Source of the DNA: Ignavibacteriales bacterium
GTDB lineage: Bacteria > Bacteroidota > Ignavibacteria > Ignavibacteriales > Melioribacteraceae
DNA: 64,000 bases
Assembly: GCA_026390795.1 (NCBI GenBank)
Contig: JAPLFG010000005.1
Span: forward strand, 348,200 to 412,199
Reading direction: 5' to 3'
In this document: positions 15,907 through 63,703 of the stretch, one piece after another
How the letters are laid out: each line of letters opens with the position of its first letter
Position numbering within the stretch: position 1 is the stretch's first letter
Translations under genes and position numbers: made by a program
Notes under the pieces: model-generated
Told to the model about the DNA's origin: nothing
Databases searched by the model: none
Seen by the model: the letters and a program-made list of their open reading frames with translations, nothing else

Positions 15907-18900
15907 TAGTTTGCCAATGGAATTGTGATTAAAATTGTAGTTCCTTCATCATTTGATGATCTTTCCACCAATATCGTTCCGCCGAGTACATTGATAAATC
16001 TTTTAGCCATACTTAAACCCAGACCCATGCCGCCCCGTTTTGTGGTAAAGTTATTTTCGAAAACTTTTTCAAAATTTTCTTTGCTTATTCCTTCTCCGTC
16101 GTCGGATATTCTAATTTCGCATAAATTTTCGTGCAAAGATAATTCTGTTTTAATATTCTTAGCCCCGGCCTGAATTGAGTTGCGAACTAGATTGACAATG
16201 GTTCTTTTCAGTTGATCTTGATCGGCATTAATAAATATTTCTGTTTCTTTACAGTAAAAATTTATCGATATTTCTTCATCTTCGAACAGGTTAAGCGATT
16301 CTCTTATAGTTTCCACTCCATTCAATTTTTCAATATTAACTCTCGGCATACGGGCAAAATTGGAAAATTCCGAAGCGATGTTTTTTAATATTTCTATCTG
16401 AGAAATAATTGTTGAAGTAACCTTTTCGAAAATTGAATCGAATTTGGGAGATTTATCAATGTGAGCGGCAATAAGCTGCTGAACAGAAAGTTTCATCGGT
16501 GTTAGAGGATTTTTAATTTCATGAGCAACTTGTTTTGCCATCTCTTTCCATGCGGATTCGCGTTCAAGTTGTGCAAGATCGGATTGGCTTTGTTTTATTC
16601 TCTTAACCATTTGATTAAATCCGTCCACAAGCTCTTTGATTTCTCCTGTGGTCTTGTAATTTACTTCAACATTAAGATCTCCGCTGCCAACAGATTTTGT
16701 TGCATAGGTTAATTTTCTGATCGGCGAAGAAATTTGATTTGCCAATACCGTACTGAAAATAACTAATAATATTACGGCAAGAGAAAATATTCCAAACAGA
16801 AAAATATCAAGTTCAACATCGGAAAGAGGAAGAACAATTCTATTAAAAAGATCATTCACTTGAATTATGTACCCGGATCCCGAAATGTCAGCAAGAGTAT
16901 AAACTGAATTAACCGGATAATTTTCAATCGGTTCTTTAAGAAAGAGTTTTTGATCCCTGCCAAGCCAGCAATTTAAGTACACAATATCATTTAGCGTTGC
17001 CGGTAGTAATCCAATATCGCTGTACACTTTGTGTGAATCGTAGATCAAATTTTTATCTTCATAAATAGAAAAGCTGATGCTGAGATCACGTGCAGCTTTA
17101 TCGAAAATTACCTGCCGGTTTAAAGAAGAATCATTAGAGTACAACGATATATAAGATTTAACCTGATCGGTAAGTTCGGTTAATCGTTTTTCAACCAGCT
17201 CGGAATTTTTACCTTCAGATAAATTTCTGAAATAGATTGCGATAAGAAAGAGCGGAATAAGCGAAACAACCAAGAATGCGCCGGTTAAACGTGTTCTGTA
17301 GGATGCCAATACATTTTTATTTTTTTTATAACGTAAAGCAGAAAATATCAGAAGAAGACTTACAATAATTATAGTATGAACAAAAAAGATTTTAAAGAAG
17401 TCAGATAGATTCCATGAGAAGCTTTTTTCTTCAAGAGCAATTGCCAATATTTTATTGCTCTTTGGTAAATTAACTTTTAAAGCATAGATCAAATTTCTTT
17501 CACCGTTCAGGTCCAGTTTTAGCCATGCTTCATCCAGATTAGTAAAATTAGATTTTAAGATTGAGTTCTCATCATCGCTAGATAATATGGCACTACCGTA
17601 TGTGTATTTTAATTGGTTATCCTGAAAATCAAAAATCTTGAGTTTATCAAGATTAATTACAGAAGAAATTCCCGCCTTGGTTGTAATTATAAATTTTGGA
17701 AATTCAGCAAAATTAAGATAGTCTTCTTCATATATTGCAGAAACAAGAGCATATCCCGCAAGCTGATCATTAATCTTTACCGGCGCTATACCAATGAATG
17801 TTTTTTCATCTCCGAAGATATTGGATTGCCGGTTAATTGTTAAAGAGTCTCCTGCATGTTGAATATAAGTTTCAAACAATTCTCGAGAAAACTCCTTGCC
17901 TGTTTCAAATCCGCCTAAATACTGTTTTTGCGTATCATAAAAATTTATTGCTGAGCGGATTCCCTCCCGATAGAGCAAACTATTGCTCCACAAAACAAAT
18001 GCATCTGATGATAGATCTTTTAATTCCGCGTATGAATTTTGAATCCGTTCGTTTTGCACTGCCTGAGTCAATGTTTGTACTACCATGAAGTCAACCATGT
18101 TTTCATCGGTCCGGATCAACTCATGTGCGGTTGTTTTTAACGATTCTCTTTCTATTTCAGAATTATAATATGTAAGAAGGCTGACAGAAATTATTGATGC
18201 CGCAAAAGCATAATAGATCAGTGCTATCGTTTTTGGCTTATTGTTAAAGAGAAAAAGATAAAAAAGCACAAAGACAATTGTTATATAGACTATTCGAATA
18301 AGTGGAGTTCCTTGCGGCTCAAGTTGAAGTCCGTCGAAAATCCAGCCACAGAACTGGGTTAGAATAAAAAGCGATATTAAAAGATTTCTCTTTTTCTTTT
18401 CTTCCATAAAAGAATATTGAGAGTAAATGAATGTTATTAAGATTAATGAGAAGATGATGGCACTCAAACCAAGGATAAGAATATTGAAATTCATCAGTAG
18501 AATGGCGGGAGAGGGTATTAAAGAAAAATCTTTGAAGTAACGAATCGTCGAATCGAAGACCACACTGCGAATTGCGGCACCAATTCCTCTGTAGGTAAGA
18601 AGGAATAACAAAATAGAAATTATAAATGATGCCATGGTTTTGAATAAACTTGCGGATTTCGTTTCAGATCGGTTGTATATGAACTCTAAAAAATATTTAT
18701 AGCCAATCAAAACTATGATTAGAAGAAATAGAACCGTAATAAAAAACTCCAATGGTGAACGGACCATACCAAAAACAAATACTGAAGAAAAATTAGAAGC
18801 ATCTGTTAAGGAGTTATGAATAAACGAAGATGGAATTCCAAAATAAAAGAGAATTGTTCGAAGTAGAGCCATATAAACCGTGAAGAGAGCGAACCGGTAT

Positions 18901-50298: not shown

Positions 50299-51063
50299 TT
50301 AAAGTTTTGACACGAAATTCAGTGTTATAGTCTGTGGAATTGTCTGCCTGTTTTCTATATTAAAATAAACATTCCAGCTTAATTCTTTTGGAAGATTTTT
50401 ATTATAAGCCGCAACCAATCTAACGGCATTAATTGCACTTATAACACGGTTCAATATTAACGCACCGACAACAAATCTAACATTAGTATAAGCAGCTTCG
50501 CTGGAGGTCCACATATTCCGGTACTCTTTACGCTGATCAGGGTTGGACCAATTCCAGTAATGTGTTGCCGGGTTATAAACTTTTTCAAAATTACGATCTA
50601 ATTCCATTACGCTGTTGTATTCATCCAAACTCTGATAAATACCAATATTGGCAAAGTACTCCGAATCTTTGTTGTCAAGTTTAGCGCCTGCTTTGGATTC
50701 TGCAAATGATTTGTAATTTTTCGCCTGCCAATTTCCATACAAATCAAATCCGGTAAAGGTACCCCACAAAACACCATCGGCTATTGTAAAATATTTTCCG
50801 CTCTCGTAACCATTCGCGTAAAGCTCACCCATTCCGGGTAATATCATAGAATATAAAATTGCAAGCGCCGGATTTTTCTTCTGAGATTGCGGATTCTGGA
50901 TGTCTGGTGTATGGTTGCTGATTGCTGACTGCTGATTGCTGACTGCCGATAGCTGATGGCTGATTGCTGTAGCTTGTTTCAGTTCAGCAAGACTTTTTGT
51001 AGAAGATGTTTGGGCAATCAGAATTGATGACATAAGTACAACTAGAGAAATAATATTTTTCAT
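50299..51063 (-). CDS. DUF5683-like membrane protein with repeat-derived N-terminal insert
   Basis: The 254-residue protein has a signal peptide (MKNIISLVVLMSSILIAQ) and a core starting NPALAILYSMILPGMGELYANGYESG, with the PG-x-GELYANG motif of DUF5683-type proteins, then a further hydrophobic segment near 205-220. Residues 31-51 (ATAISHQLSAVSNQQSAISN) are the translation of a GCTGATTGCTGA-type DNA repeat. Function is unknown. It overlaps the mtaB stop by four bases. Confidence 0.7.
   Translation of the reverse strand: MKNIISLVVLMSSILIAQTSSTKSLAELKQATAISHQLSAVSNQQSAISNHTPDIQNPQSQKKNPALAILYSMILPGMGELYANGYESGKYFTIADGVLWGTFTGFDLYGNWQAKNYKSFAESKAGAKLDNKDSEYFANIGIYQSLDEYNSVMELDRNFEKVYNPATHYWNWSNPDQRKEYRNMWTSSEAAYTNVRFVVGALILNRVISAINAVRLVAAYNKNLPKELSWNVYFNIENRQTIPQTITLNFVSKL
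50913..50973. repeat. GCTGATTGCTGA-type repeat inside the DUF5683-like gene
   Basis: Short words such as GCTGATTGCTGA, CTGCTGATTGCTGACTGC and AGCTGATGGCTGATTGCT follow one another for 60 bases with about a 7-base rhythm. The frame stays open through it. Related word sets lie in the gap 54567-54628. Confidence 0.6.
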
Positions 51064-52436
51064 TTTGAACCTGGCGATATTTTTAACAATTCATTGATTT
51101 CAAGTTTCTCTGCCGTACAAATATTTTCATCAACCTCCTTAATTTTTGCCTTCACAAATTTATTAATTATTTCTGAATTGTATAGTGCTTTTATTCTTAC
51201 ATAGTTAGAAGTAAATCCTTTCATAAAACCATCATGGTTCTCATGTTCGAACAACACAGTTAATTCTTTGCCTATCATACTCTGATAAAATTCATGACGT
51301 TTCTTCTCGCTTAGAATACGCAACATATTACTTCTTCGCTTCCGTTCAATAACATCAACCGAATTAGGCATTTCAATCGCTTTTGTGTTGGGTCTTTCCG
51401 AATAAGTAAAAACATGAAGATAAGAGATCGGCAAATCACGTAGAAAATTATAAGTATCCAAAAAATCTTCTTCTGTTTCTCCGGGAAAACCAACTATAAC
51501 ATCAACGCCAATTCCTAAATCTTTTATTCTCCCCTTTGCTTTCAATATTAGTTCTTTGTAATCTTCGACACGGTAACGTCTTTGCATCAACTTCAAAATT
51601 TTCGAACTGCCGCTTTGGAGCGGAATATGAAAATGATTGCTAATTCTTGGATCACTCGAAGCCAATTCTAAAATATCATCTGTAAGAAGATTCGGTTCAA
51701 TTGAACTGATTCTTATTCTATAATCACCTTCGACTTTTAACATATTCTTTAACAATGCATACAAATCCATTTCCTGCTCTTGATCATGATCAAGAGTATG
51801 AGCAAGATCATGATTAGAAGGAGAACTATAATCTCCAACATTAACGCCGGTAAGAATTATTTCTTTGTACCCTTGTTTGAGTAATTCCTTAAATTCTTTT
51901 ATTACTTCTTCAGGTTGAGCGCTTCTGCTTTTACCGCGCGCTAATGGAATTGTACAGAATGAACATTTATAATCGCATCCATCCTGAACTTTGAAGAATG
52001 CACGTGTCCGGCTATCGGCATCAGTTGAAAACGAAGAGTTAAACGAATTTAATTCTTCAGTTGGTGAAACGTGGATACACGATAATTCTTTCTTCTCAAA
52101 ATTTTCTAAGTATGAAAAAAGATTGAATTTTTCGTTACTTCCCAGAACAGCATCTACGCCGTCAATCTTGGCAATCTCATCCGGACGAAGTTGCGCATAA
52201 CATCCGGTAACAACCACAAACGCATTTGGATTATTCCGCAATGCGCGACGAACAACTTGCCTGCATTCGCGGTCCGCGTTATCGGTAACCGTGCAAGTGT
52301 TGATCACGTACACATCGGCTGCATCTTCATAATCAACAATTTTGAAACCGCGTTTTAAAAATTGATTGCCGATCGTAGATGTTTCCGAAAAATTCAGTTT
52401 ACAGCCTAATGTATGGAATGCTACTTTAGATGCCAT
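51060..52436 (-). CDS. mtaB: tRNA t6A37 methylthiotransferase MtaB
   Basis: The 458-residue enzyme has the N-terminal cluster cysteines in TLGCKLN, NTCTVT and TGCYAQ, and the radical SAM motif CDYKCSFC. This set, and the N-terminal TLGCKLNFSETS, mark MtaB, which converts t6A37 of tRNA to ms2t6A37. A C-terminal TRAM domain follows. Around residues 200-222, between VNVGDYS and LYALLKNM, an 18-residue insert (SNHDLAHTLDHDQEQE) comes from a DNA repeat. Confidence 0.94.
   Translation of the reverse strand: MASKVAFHTLGCKLNFSETSTIGNQFLKRGFKIVDYEDAADVYVINTCTVTDNADRECRQVVRRALRNNPNAFVVVTGCYAQLRPDEIAKIDGVDAVLGSNEKFNLFSYLENFEKKELSCIHVSPTEELNSFNSSFSTDADSRTRAFFKVQDGCDYKCSFCTIPLARGKSRSAQPEEVIKEFKELLKQGYKEIILTGVNVGDYSSPSNHDLAHTLDHDQEQEMDLYALLKNMLKVEGDYRIRISSIEPNLLTDDILELASSDPRISNHFHIPLQSGSSKILKLMQRRYRVEDYKELILKAKGRIKDLGIGVDVIVGFPGETEEDFLDTYNFLRDLPISYLHVFTYSERPNTKAIEMPNSVDVIERKRRSNMLRILSEKKRHEFYQSMIGKELTVLFEHENHDGFMKGFTSNYVRIKALYNSEIINKFVKAKIKEVDENICTAEKLEINELLKISPGSK
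51774..51820. repeat. GATC-type palindromic repeat inside mtaB
   Basis: CTCTTGATCATGATCAAGAG at 51777-51796 is a perfect 20-base palindrome, followed by ATGAGCAAGATCATGATTAG. Related word sets occur at 52448-52510 and 60992-61186. The frame of mtaB is preserved. Confidence 0.7.
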
Positions 52437-52447
52437 TACTACCTTTA

Positions 52448-52510
52448 ATTCTTGATCTTACTCATGAACTTGATCGTTATCGGAAAAGATCAGGATCAAG
52501 AGCATGATTA
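52448..52510. repeat. GATC-type inverted repeat upstream of mtaB
   Basis: GAACTTGATC and GATCAGGATC (8 of 10 pairing) face each other around GTTATCGGAAAA, inside a longer run of TTGATCTTACTCATG and AAGAGCATGATTA. It is built from the same words as the mtaB insert and the lon-upstream array. Confidence 0.6.
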
Positions 52511-52543
52511 ACAAAAAATGGTTTTCAAATTTCTATAATAAAA

Positions 52544-60897: not shown

Positions 60898-60991
60898 AAT
60901 CTTCCATAAATTGTTTTTACAAAAATAGTTTAATAAAAGTTTTCCTGCTGTTAATCTTGTTAATGCTTTTCAGACTCATATTCTTGTTTGT

Positions 60992-61186
60992 GATCTTGCT
61001 CTTTTTCATGATCTTCATCTTTCTCTCTTTCATGATCTTGATCTTCCTCTTTTTCATGATCTTCATCTTACTCTCTTTCGTGATCTTGATCTTGCTCTTT
61101 TTCATGATCTTGATCTATACATTCCTAAGGTGCTAAGAATAAGATCATGATTAAGATTAGGATCATGAGCAAGATTAAGAGGAAGG
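60992..61186. repeat. 24/48-bp higher-order tandem array with inverted arm upstream of lon
   Basis: Starting at 60992, units of 24 bases (GATCTT-GATCTT-GCTCTT-TTTCAT type) follow each other: 61010-61033, 61034-61057, 61058-61081 and 61082-61105, with partial units before and after. Alternate units match better, so the real period is 48: 61010-61057 and 61058-61105 differ at only 3 of 48 positions. A reverse-oriented arm (GATCATGAGCAAGATTAAGA) follows at about 61161-61180. A short lysine-rich frame across it is a by-product. Confidence 0.85.
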
Positions 61187-61282: not shown

Positions 61283-63703
61283 ATGAATGAAAAAAATACA
61301 AAGCTCAGCGATGAAATTACGAGTATAGAGAACATTCCGCACGTTCTTCCCGTTCTGCCGTTACGTGATAATGTGATATTCCCCTACATGATTTTCCCCG
61401 TTCTAGTAGGACGTGAGCAATCAATCCGGGCGGCAAATTTTGCACTCGATAATTCCAAATATATTTTCCTCGCCGCGCAAAAAAGATCGAATGTTGAAGA
61501 ACCGGCAAAAGAAGATATTTATATAGAAGGAACAATCGCCAAAATAATTCAAATATTAAAATTGCCAAACGGTCTCTTGAAAATTCTGGTTGATGGAATT
61601 ATTCAAGGAAGAATTATTGCTTACACCGAACGAACCAATTTTTTTGAGGCTGAGATAGAAGTCATTACTCCCAAAAATGAAGACAAGCGGGAAATGAATG
61701 CCCTCTTGCGGCAAATGTCTACATTATTCAAAGAATATGTTAAAATAAATAAATCAATACCTCCGGAAGCTGTTCATGCGTTTGATAATATTGATGAACC
61801 GGACAGAAAATTGTTTTACGTTGCCGCGAATATCAATCAACAAATCGATGTGAAGCAAAAGATACTTCAAAATTTTTCATTGAAAGATCAACTTTATGAA
61901 GTGATCCGTTTACTAAACTCCGAAATTGAAATATTGAAAATCGAAAAAGAGATTGAAGGTAAAGTCCAGGATAATATACAAAAGACACAGCGGAAATTTA
62001 TTATACAAGAGCAGATCAGAATTCTGCAGGATGAACTTGGAGAGGAAGAAGAGACATCGCCCGATTTTATAAAACTGAAAGAAAGAATCGATACGGCAAA
62101 AATGCCTAAAGCAGTTTTTGAAAAAGCGATTGAAGAATTTACTAAATTGAAGAAGACTCCACCAAGTTCACCGGAATCAACAGTTATACGCAACTATCTG
62201 GATTGGCTTGTTGATGTTCCTTGGCACACAAAAACTAAAGATCACCTTGATATAAAAAACGTTCGTAAAATTTTAGATGAAGATCATTACGGGCTTGATA
62301 AACCTAAAGAAAGAATTGTTGAACATATTGCTGTGTTAAATCTTGTGAAAAATATGCGCGGACAAATTTTATGTTTTGTGGGACCTCCCGGAGTTGGAAA
62401 AACTTCTTTAGGAAAATCAATTGCACGGGCAATCGGAAGGAATTTTGTACGCATTTCTCTCGGTGGAGTTAGAGACGAAGCTGAAATTCGAGGTCATAGA
62501 AGGACTTATATCGGCTCTATGCCGGGGAAAATAATTCAATCTATGAAGCGCGCTAAAACAATAAATCCCGTAATGCTTCTTGATGAAATAGATAAAATGA
62601 GCATGGATTTCCGAGGCGACCCTTCTTCTGCAATGTTGGAAGTGTTAGATCCCGAACAGAACCATACTTTCAATGACCACTATCTTGATATAGATTATGA
62701 TCTTTCTCAAGTAATGTTTATAACTACTGCTAATGTTCGTTACAATATTCCCCTTCCTCTTCAGGACAGAATGGAAATTATTGAGTTGCCCGGTTATCTG
62801 GAACACGAAAAAATTCAGATTGCAAAACGCCATATAATTCCGAAGCAAATTGCAGCTCATGGTTTGGAAAAATTTAATGTTGAGTATAAAGATGAAGCGA
62901 TAAATAAAATTATTATGGAGTACACCCGGGAAGCCGGAGTAAGAAATCTAGAACGTGAAATAGCTTCTGTATTAAGAAAGACAGCTCGAGAAATAGTTTC
63001 TACTCATTCGAACAATGGAAAATCATTAAAATCAAAGAAGAAATTTCCAATTGATTCAGCTCTAGTAGAAAAATTTCTAGGTGTTCCAAGATTCAGAGCT
63101 CAAAAAGCTGATAAAGAATTAAGAGTTGGAAGTGTTACAGGTTTAGCATGGACTAGTGTTGGCGGAGAAATTCTTCAGGTGGATGCAACTGTAATGACTG
63201 GTGCAGAAAAACTTACAATCACCGGACAAATTGGAAACGTGATGAAGGAATCGGCTCAGGCAGCATTAAGCTACTTACGATCAAACGCAAAAGATTTTGG
63301 TCTTGATGCACACTTTTCAAAAGGAAAAGAAATTCATATTCATTTACCCGAGGGTGCAATTCCAAAGGACGGACCGAGCGCAGGTATTACACTTGCAATG
63401 GCAATGTATTCGGCACTCAGCAATAAACCGGCACGTAATGATATTGCAATGACCGGTGAAATTACATTGCGTGGGAAAGTACTACCTATCGGCGGATTAA
63501 ACGAAAAACTTTTAGCCGCAAGAAGAAATGGAATGAAGACGGTTCTAATTCCGAAGGAAAATGTAAAAGATCTGAGCGAAATTAAAAACGAGGTTAAGGA
63601 AGGATTAAAAATTGTCCCTATTGAGACAATTAAAGAAGCTTTGCCATACGTGTTTGAATCTCCGAGAGAAAAAAAATCAACTAGCAGAAAAAAGAAACGA
63701 TAA
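61283..63703 (+). CDS. lon: ATP-dependent Lon protease
   Basis: A TTG at 61238 extends the frame, but it overlaps the promoter -10 and the ATG at 61283 follows ACGGAG, so 61283 is preferred (806 residues). The N-terminal LON substrate-binding domain ([20 protein letters not shown]) is followed by the AAA+ module with [13 protein letters not shown] and LLDEIDKMS, and the Ser-Lys protease domain with [11 protein letters not shown] (catalytic serine) and [12 protein letters not shown] (lysine). It degrades damaged and regulatory proteins in the cytoplasm. It is transcribed alone, just after the repeat array. Confidence 0.97.

Follow-up and report, generated by a model that had tools for sequence, protein, structure and literature searches.

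Cyanobacteria carry short tandemly repeated repetitive (STRR) heptamers and small dispersed repeats, which have a short unit, are spread through the genome and lie partly within genes. STRR are thus heptamers of another phylum. Two reports describe dispersed heptamers. In PMC4692102, these are the heterogeneous (GGGANTN)n of Xanthomonas and the GGGGA(C/T)T of Nostoc; in PMC4679880, the unit is TAACTGA, present in Beggiatoaceae, Cyanobacteria and five Bacteroidetes. PMC4679880 refers to Mrazek (2007) for the term "long simple sequence repeats" and for the statement that units of a multiple of three are likeliest in coding regions. Repeats of a different build are the Rickettsia palindromic elements (RPE). 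According to PMC2229807, they measure 105–146 bp, have terminal inverted repeats and can lie in frame within proteins. An 18-nt extragenic palindrome is described for Caldithrix abyssi (PMC5317091).

The DNA analyzed here is a window of 64 kb, by which we mean the whole stretch under study, in which the initial annotation had pointed to a palindromic repeat within the gene mtaB. We found that the repeat consists of tandem arrays of a degenerate hexamer, WTRHTC, occurring in either orientation. The following features of the window are referred to below:

51060..52436, minus strand: mtaB, intact gene of the tRNA t6A37 methylthiotransferase (458 aa), which carries the insert (ORF and TIGR01579)
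51774..51817, unstranded: in-frame hexamer array of 44 bp in mtaB (array scan score 42.6)
51777..51796, unstranded: perfect 20-bp palindrome CTCTTGATCATGATCAAGAG where the array orientations meet (one exact occurrence in the genome)
52452..52511, unstranded: extragenic array pair, T-rich at 52452-52483, then A-rich at 52486-52511 (array scan)
60978..61117, unstranded: long T-rich hexamer array of 23 units (scan score 101.3)
61135..61184, unstranded: A-rich hexamer array of 8 units, partner of 60978-61117 (scan score 42.4)

The WTRHTC family resembles the dispersed heptamers of Xanthomonas, Nostoc and Beggiatoaceae more than it does the Rickettsia elements. Both kinds have a short unit (in the Xanthomonas and Nostoc repeats also one with fixed and variable positions), are dispersed genome-wide, mostly intergenic and often near stop or start codons, and are patchy between species, with length and sequence varying between relatives at one place. 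Unlike the heptamers, our family has a 6-nt unit, its arrays often adjoin in opposite orientations, and copies of it sit in loops of a housekeeping enzyme that is conserved. With RPE, the arrays share dispersal, extragenic copies and in-frame copies in conserved proteins, here MtaB and a 609-aa protein, at places that appear to be tolerated judging from the intact genes. Unlike RPE, they lack fixed length, fixed ends and any consensus beyond the hexamer, and no defined 105–146-bp element with terminal inverted repeats was recognized among the arrays of this genome. Extragenic location, frequent adjacency to stop codons and inverted arms are shared with REP, REPIN, interspersed mosaic elements and the Caldithrix abyssi palindrome; as in REP and mosaic elements, the arms of one relative (G027) are embedded in larger repeated intergenic stretches. 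Unlike REP/REPIN, there is no fixed consensus palindrome and no association with a Y1 gene (20 stretches). A literature search, with most subscription papers outside its scope, found no description of the WTRHTC family. The kind of repeat is already known; this family and its recurrent presence in the MtaB loop look undescribed.

Among 127 extragenic units of this genome, which were listed by hand, the hexamer had T, T and C at positions 2, 5 and 6 with a frequency of 0.97–0.98; position 1 was mostly T or A, position 3 mostly G or A, and position 4 was A, C or T. Arrays comprised 4 to 23 units kept in a 6-nt register, in line with the tandem units of 5–11 nt of the LSSR/STRR kind. A genome-wide search (4.08 Mb) for three exact consecutive units gave 54 overlapping matches at 25 separate places, and the pattern written backwards gave 0. 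The occupation of many sites above chance, another trait of LSSR/STRR repeats, was therefore evident, and the initial proposal of a dispersed repeat proved right. For the array scan we set the matrix ourselves from arrays of this same genome and used 20 first-order Markov shuffles of 400 kb as control. In an even 400-kb sample of the genome, five arrays reached a score of at least 18, vs. a mean of 0.30 (maximum 1) in the shuffles; at a score of 24 the figures were five and 0. At a score of 14, we obtained 14 arrays vs. a mean of 6.4 (maximum 10), so that weak hits are often due to chance. Two weak hits in the window, at 62673-62710 (score 18.2) and 16212-16225 (two units), are probably of this sort. 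A test of periods 4–12 over 464 kb gave 5, 4 and 5 segments for periods 6, 7 and 12 and only 0 or 1 for the others (one shuffle, 0 for each of the three), and the period-7 segments indicate that the genome also carries some heptamer arrays. Periods detected by TRF in the window were multiples of 6: 12 in the mtaB array (51782-51813), 12 and 18 at 61135-61184, and higher periods of 24 and 48 bp at 60978-61117.

Both intergenic occurrences named by the initial annotation were recovered as arrays, at 52452-52511 and 60978-61184. The former occupies the spacer between rpsA and the start codon of mtaB; the latter lies upstream of lon, with its T-rich arm placed between a minus-strand ORF and this gene. 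In the spacer preceding mtaB, hexamer arrays were also present at the related loci L103 and L064, and the array scan detected none at L104, L105, L106, L142 and L149. Twenty-eight elements were gathered from the genome by BLAST, pattern and sample searches, a list that is incomplete; 20 of these lay wholly outside ORFs, three overlapped them partly and five were inside, with ORFs covering 89.7% of the 400-kb sample under the identical longest-ORF rule. Nine of the 28 began or ended no more than 10 nt from a stop codon, and the genes on either side of elements were divergent, co-directional or otherwise arranged. One match (L011) probably reflects a mis-set start. At L023:1501-1532 and L226:1498-1529, array-like DNA codes for the Leu-rich hydrophobic core of signal peptides, which may be a coincidence of Leu codons, and these two loci, which make up two of the five elements inside ORFs, were for that reason not counted as insertions. 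We also noted that many arrays of either orientation are clustered in 1.2 kb immediately upstream of a MiaB/RimO-like gene (G000:C3:1911370-1912565, L003).

MtaB matched the TIGR01579 profile with 440.9 bits (cut-off 357.05), its UPF0004, Radical_SAM and TRAM domains all scored above cut-off, and the cluster and radical-SAM cysteines (C12, C48 and C79; C154, C158 and C161) were invariant in 27 aligned sequences. The best structure matches were an integrative MtaB model (9a6d), followed by MiaB and RimO structures. The array at 51774-51817, read on the plus strand, is composed of two T-rich units followed by five A-rich units, and codes for MtaB residues ~207–221. The repeat-coded peptide amounts to 16 residues rather than the 18 given initially, and the net insert to 14 residues, given that most relatives have a loop of 26 residues. 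In the GAT register, arrays of either orientation can be read through and yield DL, AH, DH, DQ and EQ. The stop-bearing unit GATTAA was found in 0 of 29 coding A-rich units vs. 14 of 127 extragenic ones, with P ~0.03 if units were independent; the 29 come from several related genomes, and units of related inserts are non-independent. An AlphaFold2 model based on the 27-sequence alignment had a mean pLDDT of 89.3, with values below 50 for residues 208–220, i.e., the insert, which is located between a strand (192–196) and a helix (225–233). The insert is thus predicted to form a disordered loop, in keeping with the initial idea of a surface-loop insertion, and the intact 458-aa ORF bears out the in-frame location and suggests that the insert is tolerated.

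MtaB is not an isolated case, because a 609-aa protein encoded on contig C4 carries hexamer arrays in two loops. This protein is rich in hydrophobic stretches and had no Pfam match at E 0.001. A relative was found in 11 of the 12 genomes of the genus; at the permissive score of 14, arrays were present in loop 1 in five and in loop 2 in three of these 11. The array in loop 2 is read in another frame (MSRSTSAKK). One further low-scoring hit, close to the C-terminus of the relative from G004, is probably due to chance.

The loop of MtaB, defined as the segment between GVNVGDY and RISSIEP, was readable in 66 of the 71 genomes attempted. The script did not read it in G003, G035, G037, G048 and G053; in G003, an NN assembly gap falls exactly within the loop. 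At the search cut-off, no MtaB was detected in three further members of the genus (G006, G008 and G009), nor in G065, G066 and G094. A short loop of 25–28 residues was determined in 51 of the 66 genomes: G004, G007 and all 49 readable members of the order outside four genera (g1, g12, g42 and g53). The alignment of relatives called for by the initial annotation thus shows many loops free of the insert, including those of G004 and G007 within the genus, and no insert conserved in distant lineages was found among these 49. Extended loops (30–86 residues, +4 to +60) occurred in the remaining 15 genomes, all of them among the 17 read genomes of the four genera; the only exceptions there were G004 and G007, both of g1. 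By eye, hexamer words were recognized in 12 of the 15, few of them in G011 and G092, and no clear words were seen in G022, G093 and G095. In six genomes of the genus, the net inserts measured 14, 30, 18, 12, 4 and 26 residues, all even and therefore multiples of 6 nt. Even values were obtained for 13 of the 15 extended loops, the odd ones being those of G091 (+13) and G093 (+25); as the genomes are related, these lengths are not independent observations. The encoded peptides also varied: DQEQE in some genomes, NLTHNHNLDH in Stygiobacter electus and none in G004 and G007. In a sample of the phylum, a match was obtained in 136 of 148 genomes, with net lengths estimated by hand for part of the listed rows. 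Eight MtaB genes of apparently greater or slightly greater length were fetched, and no repeat was seen in their loops.

In a tree of MtaB calculated without the loop, a single 22-row clade (support 99/96) contained all 15 genomes with an extended loop. Five genomes of g6 and g8 with a short loop (G018, G078, G016, G083 and G084) fell into this clade too, and G004 and G007 were nested in g1 beside the insert-bearing G002 and G011. Most likely, a single extension of the loop, in an ancestor of the four genera, was followed by fast turnover, with losses at least in G004 and G007. A single old gain is the simplest reading; more than one gain is possible, because the clade includes short loops and the deep branching is poorly settled. 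A fresh insertion specific to this species does not agree with extended loops running through four related genera with apparent losses. One housekeeping enzyme offers a natural series across sister species and genera, in which the repeat is absent, short, long or differently oriented, and the spread of short dispersed repeats and its tolerance by proteins therefore become testable questions. For annotators, DQEQE or NLTHN segments in these genomes call for caution, as they may be repeat-coded and not functional.

Across the family, 65 of 79 genomes contained at least one exact match to three consecutive units, with counts ranging from 0 to 282; 28 genomes had at least 20 matches and 41 had five or fewer, and controls gave 0–4 per strand. 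Counts in the 12 genomes of the genus ranged from 1 to 203, and strong differences were observed within genera, e.g., 282 vs. 5 in g53. Some of the low counts in other genomes may represent Leu-rich signal peptides, as in the two such cases of this genome. A contig search returned relatives assigned to Melioribacter sp., Ignavibacteriales, Bacteroidetes and Stygiobacter electus. In S. electus, a single array, that in MtaB, was found in eight 20-kb stretches of one contig, because matches are concentrated in few long arrays. By eye, blocks of 12 and 18 bp recur within arrays of this genome (G090), a pattern that slippage or unequal exchange would be expected to produce. Eight copies in G027 have sequence in common beyond the arms, two of them (L276 and L278) as part of one longer duplication, and the arms differ among copies by steps of 6 or 12 nt; the hexamer arms ride inside larger intergenic repeats. 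These repeats (L275, L276 and L278-L283) join the arms with other hairpins, such as GGTGGAAAGG..CCTTTCCACC and TGCCGAGGT..ACCTCGGCA.

The initial annotation took the palindrome itself for the element. A perfect 20-base palindrome is indeed located inside mtaB, at 51777-51796, and CTCTTGATCATGATCAAGAG is the only one within the window, where ~0.13 per 64 kb would be expected by chance (arithmetic from base composition). The even 400-kb sample held three perfect 20-base palindromes, all of other sequences, and the genome-wide search proposed at the outset returned CTCTTGATCATGATCAAGAG exactly once (counted once per strand); what recurred, at 25 places, were the hexamer words. The palindrome alone is weak evidence and the surrounding array strong evidence; the former arises because the T-rich array turns A-rich in one register at the orientation junction. 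In 13 two-armed elements, the arm score sum with the own partner was 149.5 vs. 162.5 ± 9.3 with random partners. The arms use a common vocabulary yet are not each other's copies, and with the exact palindrome present once in the genome, the palindrome as a unit was ruled out. A related explanation, which we consider unlikely, is a REP-, MITE- or RPE-like palindromic element moved whole by a transposase such as RAYT and inserting into genes. It agrees with a dispersed repeat of which many elements are two-armed, with in-frame insertions resembling those of Rickettsia, and with the eight G027 copies conserved around their arms. Counts of arrays and of Y1 (IS200-type) transposase genes were also correlated in 79 genomes (Spearman 0.40, P 0.0003, uncorrected for relatedness, genome size and completeness). 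This explanation is at odds with the lack of pair-matching between arms and with elements that have one arm only. Among 24 elements of this genome whose arrays were masked, the flanks gave just three marginal similarities, and neither fixed ends nor terminal inverted repeats of the MITE type were seen. Moreover, no array was found within ~1.5 kb of the Y1 gene in any of 20 fetched stretches, which covered two of the three Y1 genes of this genome and were sampled from many more, some ending at contig ends. On this result, RAYT mobilization with repeats flanking the Y1 gene was rejected, although the positive rank correlation persists. Of the initial wording "mobile or copy-spreading", the second half fits the data, and mobility in the sense of a transposon is unsupported.

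The location of the arrays raises the question of a nucleic-acid function, for which an RNA hairpin, a terminator or a protein-binding array could be under selection outside genes; the MtaB copy would then be incidental. That 20 of the 28 elements were wholly extragenic in spite of ORFs covering 90% of the sample, and that nine were within 10 nt of a stop codon, speaks for such a role, as do the hexamer arms in the spacer preceding mtaB in G000, L103 and L064, as if a hairpin were wanted there. Other spacers at this position showed heptamer-like inverted arms by eye, confirmed by the scan in L106 only. Yet the arms have no specific complementarity, divergent, co-directional and other gene pairs all flank elements, and copy number varies from 0 to 282 within one family; purifying selection against genic copies would account for the location just as well. 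A functional element of this kind is therefore improbable in our view. Even less credit can be given to an ordinary loop, selected as protein, whose DNA merely resembles the repeat. Its persistence through four genera would suit this explanation, but the coded peptides differ between relatives or are missing, and the MtaB insert and the extragenic arrays have DNA words in common. The extragenic copies, together with the change of frame in loop 2 of the 609-aa protein, largely refute it already, and we regard it as very unlikely.

In the light of these data, the feature in mtaB is likely an array of degenerate WTRHTC units, belonging to a dispersed short-unit repeat of this lineage, whose length varies by steps of 6 nt and which genes tolerate. 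Replication slippage or unequal exchange would make arrays longer or shorter by blocks of 6, 12, 18 or 24 nt; differences of whole units were seen between species. Such changes would leave proteins in frame, because 6 nt correspond to two codons and, apart from the unit GATTAA, neither orientation has a stop in the GAT register, and the inserts may persist as tolerated, largely neutral loops. The degenerate, non-identical units are unlike the product of fresh slippage alone, and the G027 copies fit transposition or segmental copying better than slippage. New sites could be seeded by ectopic copying, by recombination or by capture in larger intergenic repeats, as in G027.

In two Bacteroidetes MAGs that do not belong to the group, this loop of MtaB was found to carry tandem heptamers unrelated to the hexamer: AGAGTCA (L113:10637-10669, period score 24) and AGAAGTC (L146:8446-8480, period score 28). 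For this survey, 57 of 80 retrieved loci were readable; one retrieval peptide was derived from the MtaB insert, with a possible locus bias, and it is absent from L113 and L146. A GGAATCA-like heptamer in L118 (5617-5653) was not established, since it scored 14 and a loop of ordinary appearance (L170) reached 15. It is conceivable, but in our estimate doubtful, that unrelated short-unit repeats land time and again in the beta-alpha loop of MtaB that follows the GVNVGDY strand, where a shared activity writes degenerate repeats in both orientations and permissive loops record them. Such a landing place would cover WTRHTC in Melioribacter and Stygiobacter as well as AGAGTCA and AGAAGTC in the two Bacteroidetes MAGs, and perhaps a third.

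Heptamers were also noted around mtaB outside the loop. Directly downstream of the gene, (TTGCTGA)n at 50916-50969 lies in frame near the N-terminus of a 254-aa DUF5683 ORF and codes for AISHQLSAVSNQQSAISN. In L103, L104, L105 and L106, heptamers of several vocabularies occur within ~700 nt after mtaB. In the spacer preceding the gene in L104, L105, L106, L142 and L149, heptamer-like inverted arms, CAGTTGT and ACAACTG, were recognized by eye, and the period scan backs those of L106 only.
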